Both the position numbers and the translations under genes were made by a program. Shown in pieces: positions 4,301-51,398 of a stretch of DNA of 64,000 bases; positions within the stretch are counted from its first letter, which is position 1, and each line of letters opens with the position of its first letter. Under the pieces are notes generated by a model. That model ran no database searches. It worked only from the letters and a program-made list of their open reading frames with translations, and was not told the DNA's origin. Source of the DNA: Anagrus nilaparvatae (taxonomy: Eukaryota; Arthropoda; Insecta; Hymenoptera; Mymaridae); the NCBI GenBank assembly GCA_022575985.1, contig JAKSXM010000269.1:1798001-1862000 (forward strand), given 5' to 3'.

Positions 4301-5195
4301 ACTTTTTACAAGCTTAAAACCGAGGCCAGTGGTTTACCGTCCGAGTGCATCGACGAGGCGACGATCGACGCGTACATCGAAAACGTCAAGATGAGTGAAG
4401 GCATAGAGCTACAGTGAGAAAAAATTCAAAAGAACATTGCTCTCAGAGGCGAAGCGAAGCTTTGTTTAAATTCGCTTTGGAGATTTTTTGGTCAGCAGGA
4501 AAACAAATTGCAGACAAAGATAATTCGGGATCCTGCAGATTTACAAGCTCTTTTGGCTTGTCCAATGACCAAAGTGGCTGGGCTTTTACCCGTTAACAAC
4601 AACGTGTTTTACCTGAGCATGAGGACCAAAGAAGGTTGTCACGAACCGTTAAATACAGCAAACGTAGTTTTGGCTGCTTACGTAACGGCTCAGGCGAGAT
4701 TGAAACTTTACAGTTACCTTGAGCACCTTGGCCCTTCCAGCTTGTATTGTGACACGGATTCGGTTTTATACGTTACGGACGAACAGGTGGGTTCCCCCTG
4801 ATTTACAGACGGGTCCGCTTCTTGGAGATCTCACGAACGAACTCGAGGCGTACGGTCAAAACGCGTATTGTCGTGTTTTGATAACGTGTTTTGTCTCCAG
4901 CGGACCGAAATTTTACGCTCTGACGATCAGGAAAGACGACGGTACCTTTGAATAAGTTTGAAAAGTCAAGGGTATCAGGCTAAATTATCAAAACAGTAAT
5001 AAAATAAATTTTAATAGTGTAAAATCACCCATGTGCGAGGAAATCGACGCTATAACAGTGAACGACAACCATGTAATTAGACGTACAAAATTTAACGACG
5101 TCGTTACCAAAAAAGAAAGCAAAGTTTGTAAAACAGTGTACACGAAACGCAGATATGTAAATGATAGTTTTAGTTTGCCATTTGGCCATGTTTAA
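1381..5195 (+). pseudogene. Decayed protein-primed family B DNA polymerase (Maverick/virus-like)
   Basis: Reading frames broken by shifts and stops together follow the order of the long family B polymerases of Maverick/Polinton-type and related virus-like elements. First comes an N-terminal region (about 1400-1757), then a Cys/His-rich zinc-binding stretch (about 2160-2500). The exonuclease domain begins with YDFET (2540) and includes an AHNSQGFD motif. The polymerase follows, with DVTSLYP (motif A, about 3860) and YCDTDS (motif C, about 4750). A basic C-terminal end stops at 5195, directly followed by AATAAA. Frameshifts or stops fall near 1757, 1900, 2525, 3728, 4130, 4417 and 4800. The domain call is secure; the exact element family is inferred. 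It cannot make an intact enzyme. Confidence 0.85.
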
Positions 5196-6537: not shown

Positions 6538-6579
6538 TTAATTGTTATTTATGCCTTTACCTTATACATGTAAATATTA

Positions 6580-8633
6580 GACTGCCAAAAAAAAAATCGA
6601 CTTTTCGATTTTTTAAGGTGCTCAAGCGTTTTTGGATGTCATTTAATGAAAAAATAAGTTCTACGTAAACCGCATCTAAAAATATTTAGTCGTTGGACAG
6701 CGCCAAAGCATTTTTGATTTTTGAAAATGGACTCTGGAACGTCGGGAGGGACTAAAGCTACTAAACTTAAAAGGCAACGTAAAAACAAAATTTCGGGGGG
6801 TATTTCATAGTTTTTTTGGTCGCTAAAAACGATGGAAACATTGATTTTGAATTATTTTTTTAAGGCAAAAAGTTATGAGCTAATTTCAGTGGTAAAAATA
6901 TCAAAAATTGGACATTTTTTGACGTCAAAAACTTGCTGCGGACTAAAAAATGTTTAGAAATTATTTAAAAAGGGCATTCCGCATGTTTTTTGGGTCACTA
7001 AAAGCGATGATATTGGTTATTTTTATTTATTCTTGACGGATTCAGAGTTATGGGCCAAATATTGTAGTTTGAATTTCCAAATTCAGCATTTTTTTGAGTT
7101 AAATGACTGTCAAACGTGCAGAGAACTTTTCTGAACCTCTAAAAAAGTAAATTATCATATTTTTGTGTTAGTCTAACTAGCGCAGAATTAATTTCTTAGA
7201 TTTTTTTTAAGGGTGCTAGTTTAGTTCAGTGTTACCACTATGTCATAAAATATGGTTTTCAGGCAATTTTCCAAATAATGCTGTCATCTTGCAATTCAAC
7301 CAAAATATTTCCAGTTGGTCTCATTATTTTTGTATAAAATACACCTTTCAATCCCCGTAATCGGCAATTTTTCATCACCGATTCTATCATCGTAATAGTC
7401 AATGAACCAAATGCCCATTTTCGGCCCTAAATGACCAATTTTTAAATTGGTGCTAAAATTTTAATTTTTGATAAAATTGAATTTTATTTTTTACAATAAC
7501 TTTTTGTAAGTTCCAAATTTCCAAAAATTTCTTACTCGTCCTTTTAGCTTTAGATTATTCCGAGATATGGTTCTACAAATTTAATGATAAAGTATGATTT
7601 TTTTTAAAAACCTCAAATTGAGACTCTGTCTTTAAATTATCATATCTGCTAAAGGAAAAATTAAAAACAAAGAAGTAAACAAATTTTGGAAACTTAAAGT
7701 TTTTACAAAATTTATATCACGTATAAGACCTATTTATAATGAAAATTTCAATTTTTGTAGCAACTTAAAAATTGGTCATTTGTGGCCGAAAATGGCCATT
7801 TGGTTTATTAACTATTACGATGAGAGAATTAGCGATGAAAAATTGCCGATTAAGGGGATTGAAAGGTGTATTTTATGCAAAAAAAATGAGACCAACTTGA
7901 AGTATTTTGGTTGAATTGCAAGATAACAGCATTATTTGGAAAATTGGAATTTTGAAAACCTTATTTTATGACATTGTGGTAACACTGAACTAAACTAGCA
8001 CCCTTAAAAAAATCTAAGAAATTAATTCTGCGCTAGTTAGAAAAACACAAAAATATGATAATTTACCTTTCTAGAGGTTCAGAAAAGTTTTCTGCACGTT
8101 TGACAGTCAGTTAGCTCAAAAAAATGCTGAATTTGGAAATTCAAAATACAATATTTTGCCCATAACTCTGAATCCGTCTAGAATAAATAAAAATAACCAA
8201 TTTTATCGTTTTTAGTGACCCAAAAAATATGCGGAATGCTCTTTTTAAATAATTTCTAAACATTTTTTAGTCCGCAGCAAGTTTTTGACGTCAAAAAATG
8301 TCCAATTTTTGATATTTTTACAACTGAAATTAGCTCATAACTTTTTGCCTTAAAAAAATAATTCAAAATCAATATTTCCATCGTTTTTAGCGACCAAAAA
8401 AACTATGAAATACCCCCCGAAATTTTGTTTTTACGTTGCCTTTTAAGTTTAGTAGCTTTAGTCCCTCCCGATGTTCCTGAGCCCATTTTCAAAAATCAAA
8501 AATGCTTTGGCGCTGTCCAACGACTAAATATTTTTAGATGCGGTTTACGGAGAACTTATTTTTTCATTAAATGACATCCAAAAACGCTTGAGCACCTTAA
8601 AAAATCGAAAAGTCGATTTTTTTTTTGGCAGTC
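6580..8633. mobile_element. 2.05-kb palindromic fold-back element with TA duplication (mariner-like)
   Basis: The two halves are near-perfect reverse complements of about 1 kb each, from GACTGCC at 6580 to GGCAGTC at 8633. TA dinucleotides sit at 6578 and 8634. There is no coding frame. The structure fits a non-autonomous Tc1/mariner-type fold-back element. It sits in the 3' tail of the LINE fragment. Related, more diverged copies occur at 9240-9760, 28278-29083 and 48790-49115. Confidence 0.9.
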
Positions 8634-8639
8634 TAGTAA

Positions 8640-11707: not shown

Positions 11708-11869
11708 CTCAAAAGAAGAATATAAAAAAACTATACCACACGCTTTGCACCCACATAACCTAATTCATTGATAATGAAATATCATTTGTGTAAATTATAT
11801 AAATTTCATGGAAACCGAGCTCTTTCGGCTGTAATATAATTCTTATTTTATATCGAGCTACGTACTAAC

Positions 11870-12589
11870 TGTTACGTCTAAGGTACTTTAAATATTTTAT
11901 GAGTAGTATTTTATGAGATTAAACTGACTAGACTCTATTGTAGCTAAATAAGACTAACGGACGTAACGTAAAGATGCGAAATCAAGTATACCTTTTGCCT
12001 TGCGTCTTGAGCAGACACTAACGGCGGGAAGGTTTGAGTTCAATTAATAGAAGATAAATTAATCAAATATAACAATTACTTTATTTATAGAAGGTTACAA
12101 TAGAAATAATACTTAATAATATTAATTTGAATGTTATTAAATAGATATAATTTGTCTTACAATGTTCTTATGTAGATAAGTGACCTTGATTATCCTATTA
12201 GGTTATGTGATTGGTGGTACTGAATATAAAATCACGACACTACTAGTTTGGAGTCCTGACTAAGAAGACCGATCCTTCAAAATCAGCGAGTATATATAGT
12301 CACGGGAGAATTTGACAAATCCTCAAATTCTCCTCCTAAAATCTGCGTGGGGAGGTGTAACGGTCAGCAAAGCTGGCGTGGGCCAACGCCCGAAACTCTG
12401 GTGGGAACCTGGCAAATTCCGAGAATAGGCGGAAGTTTGTGACTGCTCATCTATAGATTTCGCAATCATGCAAAATTCGTTCCTTTCTCAATTTGCGTAT
12501 AATTTTATTAATTACTTTTATAATTCCTAAATCATTTACTTTACCAATATTTGCGCCAATATTTAGGCGAAATATTTCAATACGTTACA
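11870..12589 (-). repeat. 3' LTR (720 bp)
   Basis: It begins TGTTACG and ends CGTTACA on the plus strand and matches 27235-27959 almost base for base. A short region near 11900-11912 and an indel near 12525 are the main differences. It is the 3' LTR because the element genes read leftwards towards it and a purine tract abuts it. Confidence 0.95.
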
Positions 12590-12601
12590 CTTCCCTCCCT
12601 G
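12590..12601 (-). other. Polypurine tract
   Basis: Read on the minus strand, CAGGGAGGGAAG ends exactly at the 3' LTR boundary, where plus-strand DNA synthesis would be primed. Its position shows that the cargo region 12602-17393 lies inside the element. Confidence 0.7.
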
Positions 12602-13525
12602 ACAGAAAAATTTGTAAAACAAATTTTGTTTATAATTTATATTTTTTTTTTTTGTTTGCGACTACATATCATGCCAATTCTGAAGGATCTAGAAAAAAAA
12701 CGAAATATATAAAAATATAAATTTAAACGTCTAGTACAACCACTCACATGGACCCTATGAATATTTATGTTGGCTCGTTTTTTAAAAAAAAATCTTTCTC
12801 TTAAAATGGCTTAAGTCTAGGGTTTCTAATTTAAAGATTTTTCTTAATTCTTACAAAAGTAAAATTATCCTAATTTTACCTCTCCTAACCTTCTCTCCGC
12901 TCCTTAAAACTAAAGCACTAGGTGCTTTTACAACAATAAAAAGTAAAATTATCCTAATTTTACCTTTTCTATCTCTCTCTCTCTCCACTCCTTAAAACTA
13001 AAGCACTAGGTGCTTTTATAATAATAAAAAGTAAAATTTTCCTAATTTTACCTTTTCTAACCTTCTCTCCGCTCCTTAAAACTAAAGCACTAGGTGCTTT
13101 TACAATTTAACTTTGAAAATAACAATTTTAATTTAATAACATTAATCCCCAAAAACTAAATATTTATGTTTAAATCGTTTTACTTTAACAAATTATTGTT
13201 TAAAAAATATTAATTATACATAAATTATTCCTTATGATTATTTAAAATTCAAATTTTCCCGCTCAAAAATTTTTAAATTTTACCGCTTAAGAGCTATAGT
13301 ATAATACTTTACACATACTACTAAAATTTGTATCTGTGTGTTGCTTGGTACTATACTATAGCTTCTTGTTATTTTTAGTGTAAGATCACCTCGTGGCATT
13401 TCTTTTTCTTCCGCTTTTTACTGAAGTGATTCTATTATTTGATAAAAGAAAAAACTAACTAATGACAAAAATATTTTTCTAAAAGTGCATCAATTTTTGT
13501 GAAGTGATAAAAATAACAAAAAATT
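12602..13525. repeat. Non-coding block with three tandem ~86-bp repeats
   Basis: From about 12855 to 13108 a unit occurs three times. It contains GTAAAATTATCCTAATTTTAC and CTCCTTAAAACTAAAGCAC, and its palindromic AAAGCACTAGGTGCTTT copies start at 12912, 13000 and 13083. The repeats lie about 400 bases upstream of the JmjC gene start and could contain its promoter. The rest is AT-rich with no supported gene. Confidence 0.7.
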
Positions 13526-15791
13526 ATGGATTTTTTTACCAATCAAGTAAGTATTTACTATTTTCTTTTGATTCTGAAGTGTACATAACCTTATTCAAAA
13601 ACAAAAAATTTTTATTTTTTTTTTACATACTAAAAGGACATTTTTACACTAACTATTATTTAATTAACTATAATATTGATGCAGCTTTTTCTTTTTTATT
13701 TTAACACGGTTTTCTTACTTATAATTTTAAATCTTAACCTAAAAAAAAATTTATATTCTCCGATATGCTGAGACTTTTTATACTGCAATATATATATTGA
13801 TGATCTTAGACAAAATTTTACCAATTTTTAAAAAATCTCAGCATATTTTCTGATATGCTGAGACTTTTTTTGAAAACATATATATTTTGAACTTAGAAAA
13901 ATTTTTACAAATTTTTTTTTTTTACAAAATCTCAGCATATTTTCTGATATGCTGAGACTTTTTTTTGTAGATATATATATTTTTGAACTTAGTAAAAAAT
14001 TTTTACAAAAAATTTTTTATTTTACAAAATCTCAGCATATTTTCTGATATGCTGAGACTTTTTTATTGAAAATATATATATTTTTGAACTTAGAAAAATT
14101 TAAAAAAAAAAATTTTTTTTTTTTACAAAATCTCAGCATATTTTCTGATATGCTGAGACTTTTTTTTTATTGAAAATATATATATTTTCTAACTTAGAAA
14201 AATTTTTACAAAAAATTTTTTTTTCAAAATCTCAGCATATTTTCTGATATGCTGAGACTTTTTTTTATATTGGAAATATATATATATTTACACCTATATA
14301 AGACTTATATAAAAATACTTATGTAAAAACATTTTGCCATTACAACAACATTTATATCTAATTTTCTTTCCAGCCCATACTTGAACGCTTTAGTCACCCT
14401 AAATTGATAGTGAAACCGGGTTACAATATTGAGACCATAGCTGCTTATTTAGGGCAACCCAAGAATATGGAGGTTCAGAAAGCTTCTTGCATAAAGGTAT
14501 TTATTATTTTTACTTATTTTACTTTATTATATGTATTAATCTTATTCTATTCTTGTATCTAGTTTTAAATCATTCTACTTAAAATTTACTTTTAGTTTGC
14601 AGCCTCGGTCAATGTTGATGATTTCGACCCTTCAAAGTATGAGGCCTCTTTCCAACGGGATCATTTCCACCGGGAGTATTTTGAAGAGCGAGCTGTAGGC
14701 GAACATCAAATTTCCTTTTACCATCGCAAGGATCGTTACCGTGGTGATCGCTCTGAACTGATGGCCACTTTTCTCAACCTCAAGCTTCCCGTATCCAATT
14801 GTGGAAGTTCTGATCCTTCAAAAGATGCTAAAAAGGCTACACGTGCCCTGGATAAACGTGCCCGGAGTAGGCGGTCCTTTCTGATGGCTCGTGACATACC
14901 TATTTCTCTGGACCTGACTTATATTAAGCTGTTTCAAAATGATACCTCCAGCGATATGCTCACCTATGCTATGAAACCAACTCCTGGTAAATATTCAAAA
15001 CTTAATTTTTCTTATTACTATTATTATTATTATATATTATTAATTTAATCTTATTGTTATTAGGCATGAATGCTTCAATGCTTTATGTAGGTTACCCTGG
15101 TTCGTCCACTGTGTGTCATATTGAGCCTGGCCAATTTTGCTCCATGAACACCCTGATACAAGGGCGAAAGGCCTGGCGGATTATACCTGCTGCATTTATG
15201 GACAGGTTTATGGACTTATACCGATCATTTGGTCTTAGCACTTGCGGTAGGGATGATTGTGTTCAAGGCTCTTTATGTCGATTTTGTGGCTGCCGTTGGG
15301 TTGGTGCTCATGCACCCGTATTTTATTTGTCATCGGAGTTTCTTTGGGCCCATGGCATCCATCATTATGATTTCATTCAGTATCCTGGAGATACGATCCT
15401 TGTGAACCCTACTGTAGGCCATGAAATTGTAAATTTGGATTTCTGCGTGGCCGAGGCTCGTACTCTTCTTCCCGTCATTGTTGGTGGTGGTCGTGACGAG
15501 GCTGACTGCTGTCCATGCCGTGATGAAGAATTTGGCGTTTATGGTCGACAGCGAATAGGGTTATCCAATCCCGGGATATTCATTCAAGTCGTAACTACAA
15601 ATCAATGTAAGGATAAAAAATGTAATAATGGTCTCTGTCCATCCCGTAAGGACTTAAATGCTCACATGAGGAACGTTCACGGTGCCTTCAAATGTGAAGT
15701 TTGTGAGAAACAATTTGTCAACCAGGAAAATCTTACCCGGCACAAAGCCGATATCCACGAAAGACGCACTGTAACCTGTCATCCTTGTTGA
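13526..15791 (+). CDS. JmjC-domain protein with C-terminal C2H2 zinc fingers, four exons, antisense to the element
   Basis: Predicted exons 13526-13546, 14374-14496, 14596-14986 and 15064-15791 join in phase at GT/AG borders into about 420 residues. The last exon carries a JmjC-like fold: iron ligands H197-x-E199 and H298 (in VGHEIVN), a candidate 2-oxoglutarate lysine K214 (GRKAW) and the YPGD turn before the third ligand. A Cys-rich insert (about 239-255) lies between them. Two C2H2-type fingers follow (about 360-384 and 389-410). JmjC proteins are Fe(II)/2-oxoglutarate oxygenases, often histone demethylases; fingers suggest DNA or RNA binding. The gene lies between the envelope genes and the 3' LTR, on the strand opposite to the element, and keeps its introns. 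An AATAAA follows at about 15867. Coding looks intact. The substrate is unknown. Confidence 0.75.
13761..14262. repeat. Tandem hairpin minisatellite in intron 1 of the JmjC gene
   Basis: The motif GATATGCTGAGACTTTTTT recurs at 13762, 13852, 13946, 14046, 14147 and 14246 (period 90-101). Each unit ends with the complement AAAATCTCAGCATATTTT, so every unit can fold into a hairpin. It fills most of the intron. Confidence 0.85.
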
Positions 15792-15906
15792 GATTCCGGT
15801 ATTAAAACGATTAGCAAGAGCCAACATCAAGTAGCTAAGAAACATTTATTAAAGTGCTATGAAATAATAAAACTATTATGCTGAAGCCTTGCCTTTCGTC
15901 ACCAAT

Positions 15907-16137
15907 ATGTCTGTTTCTAACGACAAGGATAGGCGAGAATTATCTAAATTACTAGGAAGGTAAGTATATTTTAATAAACGCTGATAATAATAATAAAAAA
16001 TTTTTTTTTTTTTAATTTTCTTTGCTAACTCCTTTTCTTTTATTTAGAGCCTTCCTTTTATTCAGAAAGATACGGCGGAATGGAAACGGCTCAAAACCGT
16101 GGTTGAACAGAAATTTTCCAGACTGGATGTTTCTTAA
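15907..16137 (+). CDS. Small two-exon gene of unknown function (46 aa)
   Basis: The ATG at 15907 opens exon 1 (15907-15959, donor GTAAGT). Exon 2 (16050-16137) gives a 46-residue, charged, probably helical peptide with TAEWKRLKTVVEQKFSRLD near its C-terminus. A competing acceptor two bases upstream would give a longer poorly composed frame that runs into a T-tract, so I prefer 16050. An AATAAA lies about 100 bases after the stop. It sits in the same direction between the JmjC gene and the next spliced gene. I recognise no family. Confidence 0.45.
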
Positions 16138-16543
16138 TATTAAATTTAGTTTCTCTTTTTTTTTTTTTTTTGACTAAAACTACTTTATTACCAAAAATTT
16201 GAAGTTTTACCTTTAGGTATTTTGTAAGTAAAAAAAAATTAAATAAAATATAGCTTTCTATTTAATTGCATCAAAAAAAATTTTTTTTTTTTTTATCATT
16301 TGCATCTAAATGTCTTCCTTGTCCTACTTTGACCCTTTACGTCATTTCAAAAAAAAAATTTTATTGTCTATTTAATTGTTTTAGCTTCTTCTCTCTTTCC
16401 CTTTCTAAAATTTTCTAATACTATTTGCTTATGACTTTTACCAAAATTTTGATTTCTGCCCACTCACTTGTCTTCCAACTTCGGCTTTGAACAGTTCTCC
16501 TTTTTACTTCTTAACGTTAACAGAAATATAAATTTTTTTTACA

Positions 16544-17019
16544 ATGGACCAACATCTCAATAGTCATCCAGGCCGCCATGTGGTGAAAATCACCAATGAA
16601 GATGAGATGAACCTTGCGGTAAATAATACTTAAAATTTTATTAACTACAACAAACTTTATAAAATTTTTTGATTTTTATAAAAAAAAAATTAGTTTTATA
16701 ACATAAATTTATATTTTTCAGTGGGAATTTGCAAACATAAGAGCTTTTTACCTGGGGGATAACCCCTTCACTTGGGTATTAAGGCAGGTTGACGACTACC
16801 AGGATGATGATGACTTCTGGTGGACTTTAGTAAGACTTTCTCACTAAAACTAAATTTTCTCTTTTCTTTCTTCAAAATATTTCTTAAAAAAAAAATTAAA
16901 TTAAAAAAAATTTTCAGTTGTGGGATTGTGAAATACTTTGGGAACTAGGGCAGGGACGCTGGACGCCTCCTCCACCAGGACCCCAACTTCCACCAGGTGA
17001 CATGGAAATGGTCGATTAA
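16544..17019 (+). CDS. Small three-exon gene of unknown function (94 aa)
   Basis: Exons 16544-16618, 16722-16829 and 16918-17019 are all in phase 0 with clear GT and TTTCAG borders, giving 94 residues. The middle is rich in Trp and Asp (a QDDDDFWW core) and the tail is proline-rich (TPPPPGPQLPP). Clean splice sites, an ATG and a following AATAAA (about 17083) make it a credible gene. It matches no family I know. The 3' ends of this gene and of the minus-strand envelope gene face each other across about 370 bases. Confidence 0.55.
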
Positions 17020-17393
17020 TTTAAAATGTTCTATTTGCTTGAAAATTGACTAAATTTTGTAAACTAAATTTTACAAGGTAATTAATAAACGTATTTATTT
17101 TACTGTAAAAACAAAAACGTGTTAGATATTTATTTAATTTCCATTCTTCCGTACTCTCTCTTTCTCTCTCTTCTTTTATTATTTCTTTTTTTTTTTTTAA
17201 TTATAAAAGCTAAAATCAATTTTTATTTCTGGATCTGGTTTCATAAGTGACTGAAGCAAATTGAAATTAAATTATAAATTTTACAGATTTTCTGGACCAT
17301 CACTTTTCACTTAATATTATCGATATTGAGTATTTATAGCTAAGTTTACTTAAGTTACTAGTTTTTACTAATTTATTTAACTAAATTACTCAT
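17020..17393. other. Spacer between convergent cargo and envelope genes
   Basis: AT-rich, with an AATAAA at about 17083 in the sense of the cargo genes and a CT-rich tract (about 17155-17180). No gene is seen. Confidence 0.5.
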
Positions 17394-18809
17394 TTACTTC
17401 ATTATACTAGAATTTTCGTTACTCAAAACTTCTGTCATATCTTGATTCTGCCTGACCTTGCTGTATCTACTCCTTTTCCTTTTACATGCATAAATCCACA
17501 AGCATATATTGCATAAAAGTGCAATTACCATGATTGATAATAAAATTTCTATATGGTACTGAAAACTGGCTGCTAGGATGTATTGAGACGTAAGTTTTGG
17601 CTTTATTTTTATTGGTACAATTGCTGCTGTTGGTTTTGGTATAAATTGATTCATATTTCCTATTTCTAGGTACGCATACTGAACCATTAGTGAAACTGGC
17701 TGGGCTGAGGTGCCTTTAAAAATTGTTCCATTTATTTTGATCTCACATTGGACTGGTATGTCGGCCACCACTAGCCCTTTTAATTCCTTTACTTGTTTGA
17801 TGTCTGGGCAAGTGACTGCTGCTTTCATGGGCTGGCTGAATGAGACGATTATTCCTGATTCTGTTTGGCTTATAGTGGATTCCTCCGAGACCCTGTCTAC
17901 TACGTCACAAGTTAACCTAGAATACACTAATAATTCTGTCTCACAATTTGAATTTGACTTGAAAATTGGTGGTCTTCTGAAATATTTTTTGTCATCACAT
18001 TTTGGTAAGTTATTTAATTCGGATTCTGAAATAAAAAACGTTTGATTTCTGAAATGATTTATCCCCATATAGTCGTTATTGAACTTCACTTGGGTCAAGA
18101 CCACTGAAGTGCCAACTTTGGAAAACAGCGCTGGACGATGAAGTTTAAAAACCTTATATGGGTTTAACTGTAGCTGTGGAATTTTTAACTTGATTACTAG
18201 AACTTCAGTGTTTACTCTTCTGATCTTCAGCTCGTGGGTAAGGTCGCAATTTTTTGTTTTAATAATATTTGGAAAACTTTCTGAAATATTTTTCCACGTT
18301 GTAGGTGAAAAGATGTCTTCCAGAATAAATTCGTTTTCCATTCTCCTCAGTGTATCTAGGAAACTTTTAAACCTCTGCGTTAGTTTTACTGGTTTTTCTG
18401 CACGGTACATTTCCCGTGATATTTCTGTCCATTCATGAATTAACCTTGAGTCTACCAGGAATCCTTTTCTTTTTATGTTGTTAGTCACTGACGTAAACTT
18501 AGTTATTTGATGGTTAAAATCTTCTAATTCTTCTAGTCCTCCCATCCAATTCCTCATTTCGGTGATAGTTTGGTTGAGTCCAGGTACTGCATTAATTTTG
18601 TTCTGATAGTACGGGTGGATATTATATATATAATTCAAATTTATTAATGAAAATATTCCCATAGATTTTTCTTGCAAATATACCCCTTGAACTTCCTCAA
18701 ACAGTATGCCCGGATTTCTAATAATGTTGTAAAGTCTATATTTCCCTGGACTGTATGCCTCGCCAATCACCCCTATGAAGCATAGCATCACTACTGCCCA
18801 CTTAGTCAT
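17394..18809 (-). CDS. env: F-like envelope protein (errantivirus/baculovirus F type)
   Basis: An intact 471-residue frame starts at ATG 18809. It has an N-terminal signal peptide (about 1-20), then a segment with PGILFEEVQGVYL that resembles the start of insect retrovirus Env and the baculovirus F family. An extended Cys- and Asn-rich ectodomain with several N-x-S/T sites follows. A single transmembrane segment lies at about 421-445, and a short basic tail follows it. I see no convincing furin site, so the cleavage pattern may differ. Such proteins sit in the membrane and mediate cell entry in envelope-bearing gypsy elements. It is the second envelope-type gene of this element, downstream of an unrelated glycoprotein. 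Confidence 0.65.
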   Translation of the reverse strand: MTKWAVVMLCFIGVIGEAYSPGKYRLYNIIRNPGILFEEVQGVYLQEKSMGIFSLINLNYIYNIHPYYQNKINAVPGLNQTITEMRNWMGGLEELEDFNHQITKFTSVTNNIKRKGFLVDSRLIHEWTEISREMYRAEKPVKLTQRFKSFLDTLRRMENEFILEDIFSPTTWKNISESFPNIIKTKNCDLTHELKIRRVNTEVLVIKLKIPQLQLNPYKVFKLHRPALFSKVGTSVVLTQVKFNNDYMGINHFRNQTFFISESELNNLPKCDDKKYFRRPPIFKSNSNCETELLVYSRLTCDVVDRVSEESTISQTESGIIVSFSQPMKAAVTCPDIKQVKELKGLVVADIPVQCEIKINGTIFKGTSAQPVSLMVQYAYLEIGNMNQFIPKPTAAIVPIKIKPKLTSQYILAASFQYHIEILLSIMVIALLCNICLWIYACKRKRSRYSKVRQNQDMTEVLSNENSSIMK

Positions 18810-19050
18810 GTCTCGTGGATTTATGTCTGGCTAAAAGAAAACAAAATTTCTCTGGTTATTCTTCTATATATATATATAGTATTAACTTATTTTCTAAACT
18901 AAAAATAACTTTCATAATATATTGTACTTCTAAACTTAATTTAAATAGTGCTTCCTTTAATTAACGCCCTCTCAACAAAATATGTATACATTTTTTTTAT
19001 TATTTTTTTTTTTTTATTTTTCATACACAGAATTTTGCTTTATCTTTTCC
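18810..19050. other. Short intergenic region between the two envelope genes
   Basis: AT-rich, with TATATATATATA near 18872 and a T-tract. A minus-strand acceptor-like TTTTAG at about 18834 could serve subgenomic splicing of the F-like gene, but this is only suggestive. Confidence 0.35.
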
Positions 19051-20835
19051 TTATTGAGAAGGACGTCTATTATTATTTCTGGGAGGAGGTAATGGGGATG
19101 TTGGCCGGATGTTTTCCCCATCTACGGTTACTTCCTGTAAATTGATGTTAGATCTTCCCAGTAAAGGGTATAATTCATTTCCCGTAGGAGCCGAAGGGCT
19201 AACCACCACTTCTAGAATACCGGTGCTTATTTCTGGCTGACTGATTACCGTATTGGAGTCCTGATTTTCTCGGTTCCCGTAGTCGTTTATCTCTTGGCCT
19301 AAATGTATTAGTAGCTGCGTTAACGAATCCCAGAAAGCGGCCAGAATGTGTACTGAAAATCCGTAAATTAAATACAAGGCATATCCTTGCAATGCTGAAT
19401 CTAAAATAAATTTAAATAGTCTAAATACTAAGAAGAATCCTAGTAAACCTGCGCTGAAGGTTCCGAAGGAGATGAATTTTCCCCAAAACCTCTCCCAGGT
19501 TGTATTAAAGATTTTTTCTATTGAGTCTGCATTTATTAGGTGCGATACATTAATATTATCGCCTGTCACGTTCTTTCCTACCATCCCTCTAGCTATAGAG
19601 TTTAGTATGGCGGTCCTTTCTATCGGGAACATCAGTGCCTCCCTCACTGATTCTAGTTGCTGTAGTGAGTATAAACCTGTTTGTGCCAGCTTTTTCGGAT
19701 CAGTGTATTTCCATGTAGCCCTAGTTTCCGGTGAGATGATTTCCGGCTTCTTTGACTCTATCGGGTCCGGAAATAATTTATACCATTTGTTGCCTATGAA
19801 ATACATCGGAGGAAATACACTGGAGCACTGATAACGGACTCCTACTTGTGTCAGAATGTGAGTTCTTGGTGCCATGAAGTATGGTTTACCGTCCCTGTCC
19901 ACTGGCATCTCCTGGTAGCAAGTACTGGTTCTTCTAAACGTTACACTTACTGGTTGGCACTGGACAATATTTATCGATTCGCCCGCGACTACTCCGATGA
20001 ATCCAGCTTTTCCGGTCAGCTGGAATCCGAAATGTGCTGGTTGGGTAATAGCCGTGCTGAGTGCATTTGCTATAATTTTCTTTTCAATTTGACACTTGTG
20101 CATCAGGACATCATGGTACAATTCCGTCATTTGTTTCTTTGTGTGCTGTTGAACAAAAAAGATTTTAGTATTTACATACGCCATCAGGTCGATGTTTTCA
20201 GCAGCTGTGACCATCGGCATATCCAACCCTTCTGGATTTTCGGTTTCTATTATAAAATGGGCTGGAGAATCCGCCCGGATGAGATCCGAATTACATGCTG
20301 TTGTTACTCCTTGCGCTGTAAAAGCAAAAGGTACATCTGCCTGAATGGCATATATTGGGCTATTCGGTTTTTCCGGGTCAGTTATTTTATTCACCACCCC
20401 TGAAAAAAGTTTAGTATACTTCTTTTGGCAATCACTAATAGGTAGTGCAGTCCAGAATACATAGCCTCCGTAAAGATCCAAACATTCTTCTTCGTTGAAT
20501 CTACAGCGAGTTCCTGTACGGAGTACCAGTTGGTTAGTTTCTAAATTGACAGTTGCATAATAGTCTTCCAATGTTACTTTTACATATCCGCTCACTATTA
20601 CTTCATTGTACGTGCCGTATGGATCAGAGTATCGTCCGTTCTCACAATCTTCCCCATTTCCATTTCTGGATCCGGCAAGTTCCACTGGAGTTACTACTGA
20701 ATCGTTTCTTTTTAACATCGGAATCACAATCATGTTTCTAAAGTGCAAATTTCCATGATATTGCATTTGTTCACATTGCGATCTGGTGATTGGCTCGACA
20801 TAAGAAGCCATTGATAGGTCCAGGGAGTTTATCAT
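19051..20835 (-). CDS. Second envelope glycoprotein, main part (mononegavirus/chuvirus-like)
   Basis: The 594-residue frame is rich in Cys and has an extended ectodomain, strongly hydrophobic membrane segments (about 480-525) and a Pro-rich basic cytoplasmic tail. It follows the 87-residue signal-peptide frame at 20863-21126 in the same phase, separated by one in-frame TAA and a few codons, so the two are pieces of one gene. The overall pattern resembles glycoproteins of chuvirus-like negative-strand viruses that insect LTR elements have captured; this family call is tentative. In this copy the break probably prevents normal targeting, unless the stop is read through. Confidence 0.6.
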   Translation of the reverse strand: MINSLDLSMASYVEPITRSQCEQMQYHGNLHFRNMIVIPMLKRNDSVVTPVELAGSRNGNGEDCENGRYSDPYGTYNEVIVSGYVKVTLEDYYATVNLETNQLVLRTGTRCRFNEEECLDLYGGYVFWTALPISDCQKKYTKLFSGVVNKITDPEKPNSPIYAIQADVPFAFTAQGVTTACNSDLIRADSPAHFIIETENPEGLDMPMVTAAENIDLMAYVNTKIFFVQQHTKKQMTELYHDVLMHKCQIEKKIIANALSTAITQPAHFGFQLTGKAGFIGVVAGESINIVQCQPVSVTFRRTSTCYQEMPVDRDGKPYFMAPRTHILTQVGVRYQCSSVFPPMYFIGNKWYKLFPDPIESKKPEIISPETRATWKYTDPKKLAQTGLYSLQQLESVREALMFPIERTAILNSIARGMVGKNVTGDNINVSHLINADSIEKIFNTTWERFWGKFISFGTFSAGLLGFFLVFRLFKFILDSALQGYALYLIYGFSVHILAAFWDSLTQLLIHLGQEINDYGNRENQDSNTVISQPEISTGILEVVVSPSAPTGNELYPLLGRSNINLQEVTVDGENIRPTSPLPPPRNNNRRPSQ

Positions 20836-20862
20836 ATTTGGTTTGTACCATTTCTTTATGCA

Positions 20863-21126
20863 TTATGAAATTCTGCGTTCCACCTCAACCTTACAAATAA
20901 TAACTTTTGTCTTCGAATATTTGTTCGCCTGGACCAGAGCTAATTTGGTCTTGGTTACATTTAGATTTGTTTTCTCCGGAATGTCGCAATCTCCGATGTC
21001 AATCAAGGAAAATGTTGAATAATTTGAGATCTGGCTTTCACAGTCAAACGCTATCATCGAGTTTTCCTTGAAATCCTGTGCCCTTGTGACCCAAAGTGCC
21101 GATATCAGTAGTAAAATTAGCTCCAT
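20863..21126 (-). CDS. Signal-peptide end of the second glycoprotein
   Basis: ATG at 21126; a hydrophobic signal peptide of about 17 residues, then an AFDC start and a CDI motif typical of the amino end of the glycoproteins mentioned for the neighbouring frame. It ends at a TAA at 20863-20865 that lies in phase with the downstream part. Confidence 0.6.
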   Translation of the reverse strand: MELILLLISALWVTRAQDFKENSMIAFDCESQISNYSTFSLIDIGDCDIPEKTNLNVTKTKLALVQANKYSKTKVIICKVEVERRIS

Positions 21127-21200
21127 CTGGAATAAAAATAACTATTTATACTTTTAACCAAGATAAACTTCTTTTATCTTACCCCCCTTAACTACAAAAT

Positions 21201-21282: not shown

Positions 21283-22152
21283 TTAGTCGGTTAATGGAAA
21301 TCTGGGTTTTATATATGATTTCCTTACTCTATTCGGATGAATTATTTTGAACTTATTTTGTTCTAACTTTAATTTTAAATTACCATTTTGGTACGTATCA
21401 CTTACTGCAAAAAGACCCAAATAATGATTTCTAAATTTTCTAATTTTATATCCTGGCAGCAAATAAACGCTGTCACCTATTTTAAATATTCGATGAACTA
21501 TTTTTCTGTCATAATACCTTTTTGACCTTTCTTTAGCTTTTATGAGATTTTCTCTAGCTAACTTTTGTACCTTGTTCAAACGAGTTACTAAATTTTTCAA
21601 ATACTCATCCATGGTTCTTGGTAGGTCTTCTGGGTCTTCCATGCTTGATGGAGTTCTACATATTCGGCCAAAAACCAATTCAAACGGAGTTGCATCAGTT
21701 CCTTCATGGTCGGCGCTGTTATAACTTAACGTAGCCATGTCCAGGTAGTCATCCCAGTCGTCCAAATTTTTGTTCACAAAATGAGTCAAATATTCGGCTA
21801 AAGGATGGTGCTGGCGCTCCAGGCTGGCGTTACTCTGTGGCATATAGCTACACGTTCTGATCTGCTTAATCTTGAACCTTCTTGCTATTTCCTTCAATAA
21901 TTTTGAAACAAAATTTTGGGCTCTATCCGTCAGCAGTTGTTTCGGGCACCCAAAAGTTGATATGAATCGCCTTATGAAAACTTCTGCTATAGTACTAGCT
22001 GATCCATCTGGTATTGCATAGGCCTGCGCAAACTTAGTCAATAAACATTGAGCTGTTGAAATATACACATTACCATTTGCTGTGGTGTTCAGAGGGCCGA
22101 CCAGGTCGATAGCTACTTTATGAAATGCTTGCGGAGGGGTATCCGTAATCAA
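21283..22152 (-). CDS. Integrase catalytic core and C-terminal domain, truncated at the N-terminus
   Basis: The frame has the retroviral D,D(35)E spacing: D16 (VAIDLVGPL), D76 (LLTDRAQNF) and E112 (SNASLERQ). The C-terminal part resembles the GPY/F-type domain (FKIGDSVYLLPG, then LGLFAV). The usual zinc-binding HHCC head is missing. The open frame extends only about 40 bases upstream before a TAG, where the unrelated protease-repeat frame ends. Some residues around the first motif are unusual (ISTAQ in place of a second-strand D). It joins element cDNA to target DNA; the 4-bp target duplication fits. Confidence 0.85.
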   Translation of the reverse strand: MITDTPPQAFHKVAIDLVGPLNTTANGNVYISTAQCLLTKFAQAYAIPDGSASTIAEVFIRRFISTFGCPKQLLTDRAQNFVSKLLKEIARRFKIKQIRTCSYMPQSNASLERQHHPLAEYLTHFVNKNLDDWDDYLDMATLSYNSADHEGTDATPFELVFGRICRTPSSMEDPEDLPRTMDEYLKNLVTRLNKVQKLARENLIKAKERSKRYYDRKIVHRIFKIGDSVYLLPGYKIRKFRNHYLGLFAVSDTYQNGNLKLKLEQNKFKIIHPNRVRKSYIKPRFPLTD

Positions 22153-22178
22153 AAGTGGTTGTCTTGTTTTTACTCTGA

Positions 22179-24300
22179 CTAATTTCTTTCTTCCGGAGTA
22201 ATTACCAACACTCTAACTTTACCTTTTCTGCTACACTTTACTTTATCCAATACCTCTATAGCTTTTTTAAATATTTCTGGCATAAATTTAGGTTTGTCTA
22301 CCTCTAAAACTGTTAACAAATTAAATAAGCCTTGAGTATTTATTTCTTTAAAATTTATATTATCTAATACTACATTTGTCAAAGCTATTATATCTTGCTT
22401 ATTATAATCACTAAGGTTATTTTCTTCTAACATATCAGAAATTAATTCTTTTAATATTGACACTTGTTTCAAAAAATAAGTTTCTTCTTCAGAACTATGT
22501 ACAAATTTATGTTCAGATAATGTGTCAATTGTATCAGCTAAATCTTTTTTATGCTTAACTAATTTCTTATAACTGAAGCTTTCAGCCTCGTCTACTTTAT
22601 TAATACCTATTTTCTGATTTATTTTATCGAAATTATTTACTATTTTTACTATTAATTCTAACACAGGAGAGCAAACATTATTACCAATTTCTAAGTATGA
22701 CATGAGCTTATCCAATAATTTTAAAGTTTCTCTGGGCTCTAATGGTGTTAGTGATGTTTTTTCTAACAAAAACCTTTTAGCCATGGCAATTAATGCTCTA
22801 GAATCATGAAATGCCATTGGTATTAAATCCTTACTTTTTGCTAAAAACCTTAATAATACTTGCAGCGTTTTGAATTCGTCAAAACCTTGAATTTTAGTTT
22901 CAGCAATTCTTAGTACTTTATACACAGGTCTTACCACCGAATTTTCTTTAAGCCCTAATTTACACAAGGAGTCATTTGCATTAAGATGAAATACGCGCAT
23001 TGTCAAACAACTCAATGTTTTTAAATCAGAGCTTGATGGACCTGCTTCCTGCTCTACTGGAACTGCTTCATGACCTGCAGGACCTGCTGCTGTACTAGAA
23101 GGAATTTGCTCAGGATTTATTAAAGTTTCATTACTGAATTCTGGAGAAAACATACAAGTTCTGTTGGTATTTTGCTGAGGTAGCGTTTTTTGAACTAAAT
23201 TAGGATTCTGATTTTGTACTAAATCAGACCTTGAATTATGTGCCAATTTATTTGCTGAAGTTTGTGATAAATTGGTAACCGAAGTTTGAACTAAATTTTG
23301 TAACGAATTTTGTGCCAATTTAGGGGTCGAAATTTGTGCTAAATTGGGTTTCGAAGTTTGAACTAAATTTTGTAACGAATTTTGTGCCAATTTAGGGGTC
23401 GAAATTTGTGCTAAATTGGGTTTCGAAGTTTGAACTAAATTTTGTAACGAATTTTGTGCCAATTTAGGGGTCGAAGTTTGTGCTAAATTGGGTTTCGAAG
23501 TTTGAACTAAATTTTGTAACGAATTTTGTGCCAATTTAGGGGTCAAAATTTGTGCTAAATTGGGTTTCGAAGTTTGAACTAAATTTTGTAACGAATTTTG
23601 TGCCAATTTAGGGGTCGAAATTTGTGCTAAATTGGATTTCGAAGTTTGAACTAAATCTTGTAACGAATTTTGTGCCAATTTAGGGGTCGAAATTTGTGCT
23701 AAATTGGATTTCGAAGTTTGAACTAAATCTTGTAACGAATTTTGTGCCAATTTAGGGGTCGAAATTTGTGCTAAATTGGATTTCGAAGTTTGAACTAAAT
23801 TAAGGTTTGCTAATTTATTACTTATTGATTCTAAGACAAAGCAATTTTCTTCCATTTCTTGAGTAAACGGAAATGACGTTTTTCCAATTTCCAAACATTT
23901 AGTACCGAAATTTAAATTTGCCTTAGTCTCGTCTAAAAATATATTACCAATCAAACCATCCTGATCAATAGGAAAATCATCCTGTACAATATGAAAAACT
24001 GATTTGTAATCACCAAATTTCAAATATATTTTTCCTAAAGTTGGAACGGTTGGATCAGTAATACCGCTTAATCTAATTATACAACTTTTATCAACAATTA
24101 AATTATTGGGCACCGCGAAGTTTTTAATTAAATTAGCATTTGCGCCCGAGTCTACTAAAAATAAATAAGGCTTTACGAGCGACTCGGATACAATTCTAAC
24201 TGTTGGCGCTTTGCTGACCTTACTTAAATGTATACTAACTATTGGTTCGCTGTGTTCGGGGCACTCTGAATCGCGCCTGAAGTCGAGACCCCACTGGCGT
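22179..24300 (-). CDS. Aspartic protease fused to seven 24-residue repeats and a helical domain; RT absent
   Basis: The frame is open from about 24300, overlapping the end of gag in the -1 phase. The protease active site is FLVDSGANAN (about 24150), with a later GLIGNIFLDE strand. After roughly 100 further residues come seven copies of a 24-residue unit (LVQTSKPNLAQISTPKLAQ pattern) and a Pro/Glu/Ser linker. A charged alpha-helical region of about 270 residues runs to the stop at 22179. A gypsy pol would normally continue into reverse transcriptase and RNase H; I find neither here nor elsewhere in the element. The integrase core starts 26 bases beyond. Either an internal deletion removed RT, or this is a non-autonomous lineage with a replacement domain. 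Confidence 0.7.
23287..23800. repeat. 72-bp coding tandem repeat, about seven units
   Basis: A 72-bp period encodes the 24-residue repeats on the minus strand. Units differ by a few substitutions (Ser/Pro, Asp/Asn and Ile/Thr/Leu changes), so they probably arose by recent unequal exchange. Confidence 0.9.
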
Positions 24301-25602
24301 TTCCTGCTGCCTGATTTTGAGAAGCCTTAAACCTTTCATTATATATTCTCTTTCTACACTCTTTTATTGTATGTCCAGGTTTTTTACAATAATAGCATAT
24401 TATTTTACTACGTCCGGAAAAGCCAGCCGACTGAGCTCTATTTTTTTTTTTTTTTTTTTTTTTTTTTATGGGAAATATGTGAATCTTACATCAGCTATGG
24501 AGTGTTTGCGGGCCTTAAAGACCCGCAAATTTCCATGACCGCCCAGTTGCACAAAGTGCACAACTGGGAGACCACCGACGAACGCGGTCGCCGGCTACGC
24601 CCCAGATTCTTACTGGATAAACACACTTTAAACCCCCCGCGCTTGTTTGTCCCAAACCGGAACTCCCTTTTCAGGTATAACTTCAGTTTGGGACGCGCAG
24701 CCTAAGCAACTGGCCGCTGCCTTCCCCCAGCCTAGTGACAGGAAAGCAATCTACGATAGAAAGCCCTCCTCCTTTTTCTTCAACAAGGACCCTTACGTAC
24801 TCTGCTACTTTGTTCCAATTTTCAGAACTCCGTAGAGTTCTATAGACTGAGCTCTATTATTTTGGTTATTATTTACTGCATGAATTTCATTCGCTTTCTT
24901 ATGATCGTTTAACGCTTTTTTAAAAATTTCACATGCCGTGGTAAGATGACCTCCACCGCAAATATCGCACTTTTCTACAACATTATTATTATCTGAAACT
25001 AACCTAATATTCGCTGTTGCGCTTGCGTGCGAGTTGCTTACGGCGTATACTCCCAATTCCCTCTCTACTATAACAGCCTCTTTGATTGTATCATCAAAGT
25101 TTGCACAAGGTATTAACCGTACCCTTATTTCTGGTTTCATACCTCGTAGAAAATATTTCAGCAAAACGCGATCTAAGCCTATCTCGGTTTCTTTAAAATT
25201 TATATTTGTGTCATTTATTGCAGCTTTTAAAATATTCCTACCTAAAATTTTGACTCTATTCGAATATAAAACCGTATCTTCGCTTGCTTTCTGCCTAATT
25301 TGCGCTAGGTCGCCATATAGCTCATGAACTGTTTTCAAATTCCCAAACATAAACTCGAAAAAACTTGTAACCTCCTGCATGTTAACGAACACCCTCTCTC
25401 CCATCGCCTCGGCTGCCGCCCCTGATATCCTAGTTGCTATTAATTTTGTAAGTTGAGACTCAAACTCTGGGGGAATGGATTTACGAGCTAAATTACACCC
25501 TCGTAAAAAATTTGACAGCTCATTTCTGTTTCCATCAAACTTTGGGATATAATCTAGGGCGTCTTTAATTGACAACGCCCTAATTTTTGTAAGTTCATAA
25601 TT
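24239..25602 (-). pseudogene. gag: Gag, C-terminal part with two zinc knuckles, split by an R1 fragment
   Basis: Continues the N-terminal gag frame after one in-frame TAA (25603-25605). It includes a retrotransposon capsid-type region (about 25100-25500). A first CCHC knuckle is CDICGGGHLTTAC, and a second, beyond the insertion, is CYYCKKPGHTIKEC (about 24385). The 402-base R1 fragment lies between the knuckles. Gag ends at TAG 24239-24241. The protease frame overlaps this end in -1 phase, the usual gypsy arrangement for frameshifted gag-pol. Confidence 0.8.
24443..24844 (-). mobile_element. 5'-truncated R1-clade LINE fragment inserted in gag
   Basis: A perfect 14-bp duplication (GACTGAGCTCTATT at 24429-24442 and 24845-24858) flanks a GC-richer segment. 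On the minus strand it starts in the last RT codons (NWNKVAEYVRVLVEEK, similar to NWYSVAEYVR at about 44967) and ends in an A-run (T-run on plus, 24443-24467). It interrupts gag between the two knuckles and is younger than the host element. Confidence 0.9.
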
Positions 25603-26712
25603 TTATTTAAAAATAGAGCTTGGATCGGGTTCTATACCTGTATTTTTGCTATAATGTGGGTTCTCTATATTATTTAGAAAGTTTGGAGGAATTTCTGGGT
25701 ACGTGGTGGGCCTTGAATGTTGGATATCCCCCCCATCCGCCTTCAAAGGTGGGGATGGAATGCTTTCGTACTGTGGAGTGTGGTACATTGTCGAAGGCCA
25801 ATTCTCATGACCTCGATGACGTGAGCGATTTTGAGTAATTTGACCGTAGTTTACGCTTTCGCAATCTTCTATATTGTAAATTTGCGGCGTATTTTGATTA
25901 TTTTGTAAACTATTTCTAATAATTTCCTCTTTTAAATTAAAACCTGTAGTTTTACTAACCCCTGAAGTTAACGGTGTTTCAAAATCTTTTGCTAATCTAC
26001 TCTCTACGTTTAGTGAATCAGATTTTACTACACTGTCGTGTAAATTGAGTGCCTCAATGACCTGCTCGAGCCCTAAACCTTTTTGGTTTAATTCATTTAA
26101 AACTAGACAAAATTGAGGATCCTGCATAGTTTTTTCCAGTATTTCTTTATTTTCCACGGAATATTTTAATTTATTATATAATTTTGTAAAATCACTCGGT
26201 ATTGATTTACCACTGAATGATTGTATTTTTTCGTAAATGTACTTAATATAGTCAAACGTCGTAGAGCAAATTCTATTCGAATCCACTTTAATAAAATTTC
26301 TGAGAATTTCGTTTACTCTGAAATCTGTATAAACCGAGTATGAATTTACTTCTTCCGATTTTGCTGTTATGATATCTACTAAAACTGAAGGCTCTATTTG
26401 AGCATCTTTTAATTTTTTAAACAAATCAACAAAAAAATTATCTTTAAATAACGAATTCATTTTTAGTAATGGAATCAACTGAGCAAGATCCGTTATTAAT
26501 GCGTTTGCTTCATCACTCAATTCACACGTAAGAGGAATTGTTTTTTCACTATAATAATTTTGATACGCGGCGATTACTGCCCTGAGATCTGATTCGTTAT
26601 TTATTTCTAATACACCATCCGCGTGTTCTACCAAAATCTCAAACGTTTTTAACACTATTTTATCTCCAGCTTTGAACTTCTTTTCTAAATGGTTAATTTG
26701 ATTACTTGCCAT
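25603..26712 (-). CDS. gag: Gag, N-terminal part (369 aa)
   Basis: ATG at 26712. The protein is mostly alpha-helical with no recognised motif in its first 250 residues, then a Pro/Asn/His-rich stretch, and ends at TAA 25603-25605. The downstream gag frame continues in the same phase, so the stop is either a mutation or a readthrough site. It would be the matrix-like and spacer part of the structural polyprotein. Confidence 0.65.
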   Translation of the reverse strand: MASNQINHLEKKFKAGDKIVLKTFEILVEHADGVLEINNESDLRAVIAAYQNYYSEKTIPLTCELSDEANALITDLAQLIPLLKMNSLFKDNFFVDLFKKLKDAQIEPSVLVDIITAKSEEVNSYSVYTDFRVNEILRNFIKVDSNRICSTTFDYIKYIYEKIQSFSGKSIPSDFTKLYNKLKYSVENKEILEKTMQDPQFCLVLNELNQKGLGLEQVIEALNLHDSVVKSDSLNVESRLAKDFETPLTSGVSKTTGFNLKEEIIRNSLQNNQNTPQIYNIEDCESVNYGQITQNRSRHRGHENWPSTMYHTPQYESIPSPPLKADGGDIQHSRPTTYPEIPPNFLNNIENPHYSKNTGIEPDPSSIFK

Positions 26713-27234
26713 TTTTAATAATAGTAATTACCAAAAACTGAATTAAAAGGATTTTAAAATTAATTAATTTAATTAGTAGATTTATTTTATACTTGAATTT
26801 TAAAAATTAAACAAAAAAAAATTTTTAAATCGCAGATTACACGAGGAAAAAAAAAATGGCATGTAATATTGTGAAAGTACTCAAAGAATATTGAATCCCC
26901 ACTTAATCTAACATCCAAACGAGATTTATCTGTTTTGTATATATTTTAATATTTATATATATATATATATAATATATATGTATATTTTGAATATTCATTA
27001 ATTATATAAGAAAAAAAAATTTTTTTGATAAATTTCACATATATATATATATAAATATATACCACCAAAGTAAAAATTTTTAATTATTATTAAAAAAAAA
27101 TACCTGAATTATAAAATAATTTTATTAATAAATAAAAATATGAGTTTTAAAACTACTAAATAACATTCAATTCAATATTTAATTAATTAGAAGAAATTTT
27201 TATTGAACTCTTATCGCGGACGAGCCCTCAAACT
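26713..27234 (-). other. 5' leader of the LTR element
   Basis: AT-rich untranslated leader between the 5' LTR and gag, with TA-rich runs near 26940-27060. No usual TGG-initial primer site abuts the LTR; the sequence there on the minus strand is AGTTTGAGGGCTCGTCC, so the primer is undetermined. Confidence 0.5.
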
Positions 27235-49115: not shown

Positions 49116-49322
49116 TATCTATTAAGTTAATCATATATATTAGAGTGGACCTATTTTTGGACTATAATACTTTATTAATTCGTTCCTTTCATAAATTTAA
49201 CTTAAAAGATATTATATATTGGTCAATATGGAACATAAAAATAACAATATAATTATTGCTTTATACAAAAATTTGATGGAAATTATTTACAATTCTTATT
49301 ACTGACCTAAAAGATTTTAAAT

Positions 49323-49396
49323 GGTTCATTTCGGCTCTGTATAGTAGTACGAGCCATCATCAGTAAGGTATACTACTATACTTCTTTAGATAAACC
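49323..49396 (-). ncRNA. Hammerhead ribozyme, direct unit 1
   Basis: On the minus strand: stem III GGTTTAT...ATGAACC (one G-U pair), cleavage after ATC, a stem I hairpin, the CTGATGA core, stem II GGCTC/GAGCC, and GAAA. All conserved core bases are present. Confidence 0.85.
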
Positions 49397-51267: not shown

Positions 51268-51398
51268 ATTTAAATTCTTTTAGGTCAGTAATAAGACTGA
51301 AAAATAATTTCCATCAAATTTTTGTATAAAGCAATAATTATATTGTTATTTTTATGTTCCATATTGACCAATATATAATATCTTTTGACCTATTTTTG

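Follow-up and report, generated by a model that had tools for sequence, protein, structure and literature searches.

The stretch of DNA analysed here, referred to as the window, comprises 64,000 nucleotides of Anagrus nilaparvatae (Hymenoptera, Mymaridae; assembly GCA_022575985.1, contig JAKSXM010000269.1, positions 1,798,001 to 1,862,000 of the forward strand) and contains a minus-strand Ty3/gypsy-type long terminal repeat (LTR) element with two envelope-type genes, env1 and env2. Between these envelope genes and the 3' LTR, two intron-bearing genes are located on the plus strand, opposite to gag, pol and env; the first encodes a JmjC protein, the second is named gene 3, and together they are called the block. 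The 3' LTR (11867-12589, minus strand) shares 97.1% identity with the 5' LTR (27231-27959, minus strand), a divergence of 2.9% with gaps counted, and the 4-bp target site duplication (TSD) TAAC is present at both outer sides. A polypurine tract adjoins the 3' LTR at about 12590-12601 (minus strand, direct reading), and similar sequence was observed beside the 3' LTR of the other examined copies. An earlier note on this DNA had described a minus-strand LTR element with a purine tract, and plus-strand genes with GT/AG introns between its envelope genes and 3' LTR, both of which are borne out by the window sequence; its estimate of a 1-2% difference between the LTRs was too low.

The JmjC gene begins with an exon of seven codons from the ATG (13526-13546), which ends in a GTAAGT donor and is followed by intron 1 (13547-14373), in which tandem repeats of about 100 bp occur, each with a hairpin. 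Exon 2 (14374-14496), exon 3 (14596-14986) and exon 4, up to a premature TGA (15064-15791), were delimited by the reading frame and the alignment of copies, and exon 4 harbors the JmjC domain and a C2H2 finger. The remainder of exon 4 after the premature stop (15792-15959) includes a 10-bp insertion peculiar to this copy as well as the 5' part of what the earlier note had taken for a second gene, the 3' part of which corresponds to exon 5 (16050-16137, stop codon at 16135-16137); all of these features lie on the plus strand. Exons 1-4 of the window join in frame through GT/AG introns to encode 420 residues up to the TGA, and the Pfam families PF02373 (E 8.2e-14) and PF00096 (E 3.7e-6) are matched by this protein.

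The gene is broken in the window by the TGA at 15789-15791 and by the 10-bp insertion near 15858-15867, which is found only in the window row and is missing from all five other rows of the alignment (L002, L003, L004, L005 and L007; L-numbers denote genomic loci fetched from this genome, C-numbers contigs, and P0001 and P0002 database proteins). The frame of exon 4 remains open beyond the window TGA up to the exon end in L007, L043, L044, P0001 and P0002, and in L007 an intron after exon 4 leads into the homologue of the supposed second gene. For these reasons the second gene was rejected as a separate unit, and the first and second of the three genes counted in the earlier note are a single five-exon gene that is interrupted in the window copy. 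The AATAAA at 15866, which had been read as the end of the first gene, is not a gene end, since it overlaps the window-specific insertion. Other copies carry lesions of their own: L002 passes the position of the window stop and has its own stop five codons later, L004 stops earlier than the window, and L005 displays a frameshift and lacks the last exon. Nor are the antisense genes clearly less damaged than gag or pol, as had been claimed, with the JmjC gene interrupted, one stop in the glycoprotein gene and the reverse transcriptase-RNase H (RT-RNase H) region missing in the window copy.

Gene 3 consists of three exons (16544-16618, 16722-16829 and 16918-17019, plus strand; AATAAA at 17084), delimited by the open frame and the comparison of copies, and encodes a conserved protein of 94 residues which is small, acidic and tryptophan-rich and has no Pfam match. 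Exons 2 and 3 run together without a gap in L046, precisely where the junction was predicted; four other copies have an intron at this point. Comparison of five copies gave a proportion of nonsynonymous differences (pN) below that of synonymous differences (pS) in 10 of 10 pairs.

In the genome (488.7 Mb in 393 contigs) a pattern of six TTAGG units has 1685 matches and its reversed control none, and an array stands at the start of contig C19, as would be expected of an arthropod. The genome was searched for further copies, and at least 77 places were found with the block DNA (best 40 of 68 candidates scored) and at least 49 with the LTR (best 40 of 218 candidates scored), and tblastn yielded at least 121 hits in at least 75 loci for the JmjC protein (best 100 of 417 candidates scored) and at least 76 hits in at least 71 env2 loci for the glycoprotein (best 73 of 488 candidates scored). 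The block and the envelope genes share order and orientation in the window, L002/L039, L004/L040, L007/L042, L044, L045 and L046. All 34 JmjC-env2 pairs within 8 kb are convergent, with none on the same strand and none divergent, and 30 of them are spaced 3.1-4.8 kb apart; by our arithmetic about 0.04 convergent pairs would be expected by chance, the pairs not all being independent events. At a radius of 15 kb one same-strand pair appears.

Ten records of LTR pairs, representing nine insertion events, were examined, and an exact 4-bp TSD was observed in seven events. Among the block-bearing pairs these are TAAC in the window; GCAG at 11.05 Mb and CAAT at 13.4 Mb of C342; and GATG in the L045 element, whose 1001-bp LTRs are 99.0% identical. 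ATTT flanks the pair at 9.74 Mb of C113, where JmjC pieces at both ends of the LTR pair indicate a rearrangement, and TTGG in C213 and ATAG at 20.07 Mb of C95 enclose only parts of the block region. At 16.58 Mb of C342 the duplication matches at three of four bases, and the copies at 2.45 Mb of C373 and 1.05 Mb of C281 share their flanks and represent one insertion event, whose duplication is ambiguous by one base. The termini and duplications agree with the TG...CA ends and 4-6 bp TSDs of Ty3/gypsy elements, and the block-bearing LTR pairs span about 13.5 to 28 kb. The block belongs to the element family, since it is carried by several insertions that are bounded by LTRs and have TSDs of their own, and since all 34 pairs are convergent; its anatomy and its conservation across the family are well supported. 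The earlier note had proposed this check and had named copies lacking the block, or a block inserted separately, as the contrary outcome; this outcome did not occur, and LTR-bounded insertions hold the block at the same place and in the same orientation with its introns retained. Its observation is thus partly confirmed, and its interpretation, once corrected to a block of two genes, is supported.

No JmjC match was found within 15 kb of 23 env2 loci at or below 38% glycoprotein identity; of the remaining 48, 36 do have a JmjC locus that close. L053, beside one of the 23 distant loci, showed no block proteins, so that the block may mark one clade or may be too divergent to be recognized in the distant env2 group; L053 also carries a 276-aa sense open reading frame (ORF). 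Shorter or different relatives were observed as well. L047 and L008 (C157:6.644-6.652 Mb) represent a derivative of about 7 kb with gag, the 3'-end repeats and the intron-1 repeats, in which no pol, env or JmjC protein match was found and whose first gag ORF is 98% identical to that of the window; LTR matches like those of this derivative occur at C175:1.34 Mb, C215, C62:39.55 Mb, C218 and C157:14.55 Mb. A different JmjC gene, with a 508-aa frame and several C2H2 fingers, is located at L054:3482-5513 (minus strand), and 12 same-strand matches in a row to one part of a JmjC exon, apparently a tandemly repeated fragment, occur at C62:66759947-66765352.

Purifying selection is evident on both antisense genes. 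The ratio of nonsynonymous to synonymous rates (dN/dS) between the JmjC genes of the window and L007 is 0.171 for exon 3 and 0.107 for exon 4; for comparison, the glycoprotein gave 0.057 and env1 0.151 between the window and L044. Exon 4 of L045 and L046 gave a pN of 0.277 and a pS of 0.758; dS is saturated in many of the distant pairs. L044 resembles the window in the LTR and adjoining repeats (75% DNA identity), in env (80% DNA identity) and in the glycoprotein (90% protein identity), whereas its block does not align with that of the window except for one 64-bp match and its JmjC protein is 43% identical; the reverse pattern was observed in L007/L042, with 78% for JmjC and about 50% for the glycoprotein. 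Since the flanks of L044 resemble the window while the block does not align, the block can be exchanged as a unit and has been swapped between element lineages, most simply, it would seem, by recombination between co-packaged genomes.

The encoded protein combines a KDM6-like JmjC domain with C2H2 zinc fingers, the similarity to KDM6 being remote. A single-sequence search of solved structures gave nine matches, all of them KDM6 (best E 6e-6). A profile search placed zinc-finger proteins at the top (1.6e-19), and the JmjC proteins among the best 60 of 174 matches were KDM6 first (UTY, 6.5e-9) and one JMJ14 (3e-5). Across nine aligned sequences, down to about 31% protein identity, 18 cysteine or histidine columns are invariant, and these are presumably zinc ligands. 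The protein database search returned two unnamed ENA proteins, and a later one seven, including the same two; no match was found in the viral contigs scanned with the JmjC protein. The window, L007, L043, L044 and P0001 have the full motif HxE...H, which we take to be the iron ligand triad of JmjC domains; L045 and L046 have an altered one. Among 40 further JmjC stretches the triad is complete in 14, altered in 24 and unreadable in one frame in 2, and the class of higher identity contains 13 complete, 1 altered and 2 unreadable of 16.

The splicing signals and a putative promoter are also shared among copies. Of the 15 aligned rows, 11 show the GTAAGT donor of exon 1 and three stop short of the site; the L044 row of this 15-locus upstream alignment is misplaced, its BLAST match falling in the env region. 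L007, about 71% identical in DNA, preserves the junctions of exons 2-5. On this basis the antisense transcripts would be spliced and polyadenylated, and splicing and an antisense promoter are considered likely but unproven. A conserved noncoding element with a long inverted repeat (13243-13415, plus strand; hairpin z-score of -4.0 for 13277-13400) was detected at E 1.7e-11 or better in 13 of the 15 loci tried, including L045, whose JmjC protein is 31-32% identical, and is the candidate promoter region of the antisense unit, outside the LTR. One unit of the intron-1 repeats folds strongly (z-score -5.4), and the counts of the core motif of these repeats differ between copies.

Besides the block, the window element contains the following features. 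Three tandem repeats of about 84-88 bp, found by repeat search, lie between the 3' LTR and the antisense gene (12855-13106). On the minus strand, env1 (17394-18830), the second envelope-type ORF, is baculovirus-F-like through its homologue in L046, and env2 (19051-21141) encodes a Monjiviricetes-type fusion glycoprotein (PF24664, E 7.6e-158 and 1.4e-17 for two pieces, with one in-frame stop between them). They are followed, likewise on the minus strand, by the integrase (21283-22212; PF00665, E 2.1e-8), the protease and spacer (22182-24326; PF00077, E 0.0011, just under its cut-off) and the gag region with two ORFs (24808-26727), which is assigned by position and by the zinc knuckle in the ORF at 24242-24490. 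The sequence adjoining the 5' LTR resembles what we take to be a tRNA-Pro primer-binding site. RT-RNase H is absent from the window pol, between the protease/spacer and the integrase, and is present in the related copy L041, where RVT_1, RT_RNaseH, Integrase_H2C2 and rve occur in gypsy order, so that the Ty3/gypsy (Metaviridae) domain order is given through L041, not through the window copy. Neither the window env1 nor that of L044 has a Pfam family above the cut-off; the L046 homologue matches Baculo_F (PF12259, E 5e-10) and aligns with the window ORF at 25% identity (E 2e-38), which places an errantivirus-like F-type envelope in L046, with no such match in the window copy or L044.

Two unrelated envelope-type genes, one baculovirus-F-like and one Monjiviricetes-type, are adjacent in the window, L042, L044, L045 and L046. 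An extra sense ORF, about 246 aa long and situated between env1 and the block, was observed at L045:4555-5292, L046:4524-5261 and L042:105-845 (all minus strand); it has no Pfam match in L045 or L046 and was not seen in the window copy. Outside the element, the window contains ORFs at 1816-4801 that presumably resemble the protein-primed DNA polymerase of a Polinton-like element, a large inverted repeat at 6575-8638 with 638-nt arms of 96% identity, and a complex cluster of direct and inverted repeats at 49-51 kb (49161-51386).

Several known systems share parts of this arrangement. In plant Ty3/gypsy elements of the Retand/Tat lineage (Grande gene23, RIRE2, TRP28), antisense ORFs between pol and the 3' LTR are characteristic, with tandem repeats there in about half of the elements, an antisense coding region in nearly all clusters and a promoter of its own upstream of Grande gene23 (PMC7264820, PMC11963269). 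Here, too, all 34 pairs have a conserved ORF lying in antisense between the 3' LTR and the sense genes, a functional likeness rather than homology: as far as these sources describe them, the Retand elements occur in plants, lack an envelope-like domain in the sense ORFs of that region, and encode TRP28, Smc, Mis12 and other domains with no JmjC mentioned, whereas Pfam gives JmjC and C2H2 for the JmjC gene and none for gene 3. The fungal element Boty and non-coding antisense RNAs of Drosophila micropia are mentioned in PMC7264820. Among deltaretroviruses, HBZ of HTLV-1 is a spliced antisense regulator with its promoter in the 3' LTR, and HBZ and APH-2/3/4 resemble the block, whose splicing and regulatory role are predicted, in being antisense, spliced, regulatory and near the 3' LTR (PMC10186651); they differ in the 3' LTR promoter, in a bZIP domain (HBZ) or none (APH), in their vertebrate hosts and, as far as that source goes, in the lack of any mention of JmjC or zinc fingers.

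The errantiviruses and other insect endogenous retroviruses share with the present family the RT-RNase H-integrase order (L041) and the F-type envelope homologue (L046), and the present family differs in the additional Monjiviricetes-type glycoprotein, in the antisense block and in LTR pairs of the length given above. Capture of a chuvirus glycoprotein is documented for the BEL/Pao element Anakin, likewise a retroelement with a glycoprotein of a negative-strand RNA virus (PMC7642597), whose main text does not contain the word antisense, and PMC10084718 reports that there is no clear evidence for such a capture by Gypsy. KDM6 (UTX/UTY/JMJD3) is the nearest JmjC group among solved structures, with the HxE and the distal histidine kept in one branch of the present family; the protein described here differs in its remote similarity, in C2H2 fingers after the JmjC domain and in the altered iron ligands of the other branch. 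Host-type chromatin enzymes in selfish elements are otherwise represented by DNA methyltransferases in retrotransposons (PMC5890265) and by KDM4-like, intronless JmjC genes in endogenised giant viruses (PMC11244446), for which the accessible text describes no antisense intron-bearing unit, and bdelloid LTR elements carry extra ORFs, with antisense mentioned there for small RNAs only in what is available of PMC5408684. A search of the full-text literature by titles and abstract beginnings found no JmjC gene or spliced antisense block in an animal LTR element, which is no proof of absence since subscription papers for the most part, and probably Repbase reports as well, lie outside it. The earlier note knew of no description of such an arrangement; antisense ORFs near the 3' LTR are known from plants (PMC7264820, PMC11963269) and in spliced form from HTLV-1 (PMC10186651), and what looks new is the combination: a Ty3/gypsy lineage of animals that has envelope genes and, conserved in antisense, an intron-bearing module of a JmjC/zinc-finger gene and its partner.

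On balance we consider it fairly probable that the block serves this envelope-bearing Ty3/gypsy-type family as a fixed regulatory module in antisense orientation, and its retention through many jumps suggests a built-in regulator of the element. The antisense unit would be driven by a promoter of its own, located between the 3' LTR and the start codon of the JmjC gene; its mRNA would be made from integrated DNA only, and its introns would not be removed from the sense genomic RNA and would survive reverse transcription, so that the antisense position, by hiding the introns from genomic-RNA splicing, would explain the long-term retention of intron-bearing genes. The JmjC/zinc-finger protein would act in the nucleus, bound to DNA or chromatin, on the expression or silencing of the element itself; the branch with the iron ligands kept may additionally remove repressive histone marks, and the protein of the branch with altered ligands would be a non-catalytic scaffold.

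A number of observations weigh against this explanation or narrow it. No env2 match lies within 8 kb of 41 of the 75 JmjC loci, although at least two of these (L045 and L002/L039) do have env2 in the fetched sequence, and L043 has no env or gene 3 within the 6.3 kb fetched, its env2 match being 10.7 kb away. Near pairs display higher dN/dS (about 0.44 for the window and L004, and 0.907 for exon 3 of L002 and L004), degenerate splice sites occur in individual copies (the exon-5 acceptor of L002 is one), and among the 15 loci tried L044 and L046 yielded no match to the candidate promoter element, L046 having been dropped from the upstream alignment at E 0.008. The scores that single out KDM6 as the nearest solved family are weak, and the AlphaFold2 model of P0001, built on three sequences, is poor (mean pLDDT 34.6). 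Of the 24 members examined in the class at 29-33% identity to the window, 23 have altered iron ligands (L059 read at the distal site only) and one, L092, has a complete triad. For 35 JmjC loci a glycoprotein partner lies within 15 kb, and their triad is altered in 18, complete in 12 and unread or unreadable in the remaining 5. Because the ligands are altered in 23 of 24 copies of that class and in 18 of the 30 readable glycoprotein-paired copies, demethylation cannot be the general function and would at most be that of one branch; the conserved part of the family appears to be the fold with its fingers. With the ligands kept in one branch and altered in the other, constant demethylase activity is less likely than regulation by a protein bound to DNA or chromatin. 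Regulation in the nucleus has the best support, though still as a guess, and only one branch could be catalytic.

A more detailed version, which we put forward only tentatively, is an animal Ty3/gypsy lineage with a chromatin-control module, in which a zinc-finger-guided KDM6-like protein and its partner would be spliced in antisense from integrated DNA; the protein would be an active demethylase countering silencing in one branch and a dead DNA-bound regulator in the other, perhaps guided to the palindromic repeats of intron 1, and the module would be traded as a cassette between lineages.

The proposed regulatory module has four competitors. HBZ, APH-3 and APH-4 reduce expression driven by the 5' LTR (PMC10186651), and the common form with altered ligands could repress by binding, with no need for catalysis, so a self-limiting module that represses sense expression and favours persistence may be considered; we regard it as unlikely, given that no bZIP family is among the Pfam matches and that some members retain the iron ligands one would expect in an active enzyme. 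It seems quite unlikely that the antisense unit matters as RNA, with double-stranded or interfering RNA limiting sense expression and the ORFs being passive: antisense RNAs of LTR elements are discussed in such a role (PMC7264820, PMC10186651) and the intron-1 repeat unit folds strongly, but pN is well below pS in both genes, and the frames and the 18 cysteine or histidine columns are kept down to about 31% protein identity. Capture of a host gene as neutral cargo on a single occasion would account for the host-type JmjC and C2H2 domains and for the decay of the iron site in one branch; it is very improbable, however, since the JmjC proteins are only about 30-60% identical between carrier elements, yet pN remains below pS, and since all pairs are convergent. 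The idea of an independent mobile element sitting inside the retroelement, as the exchange of the block as a unit in L044 might suggest, is hardly credible: outer LTRs and TSDs enclose the block in several insertions, no inverted pair of at least 40 nt surrounds it in window positions 1-22000, no solo copy with its own duplication was met in the loci read (no systematic search being made), and co-packaged RNA recombination accounts for the exchange equally well.

The block shows how intron-bearing genes can be kept in a retroelement over the long term through antisense placement, and the similar layout in plant Retand elements and in HTLV suggests a recurring solution. The family described here is a candidate endogenous retrovirus with a chromatin-type protein of its own, whose natural iron-bearing and iron-altered forms are directly comparable.

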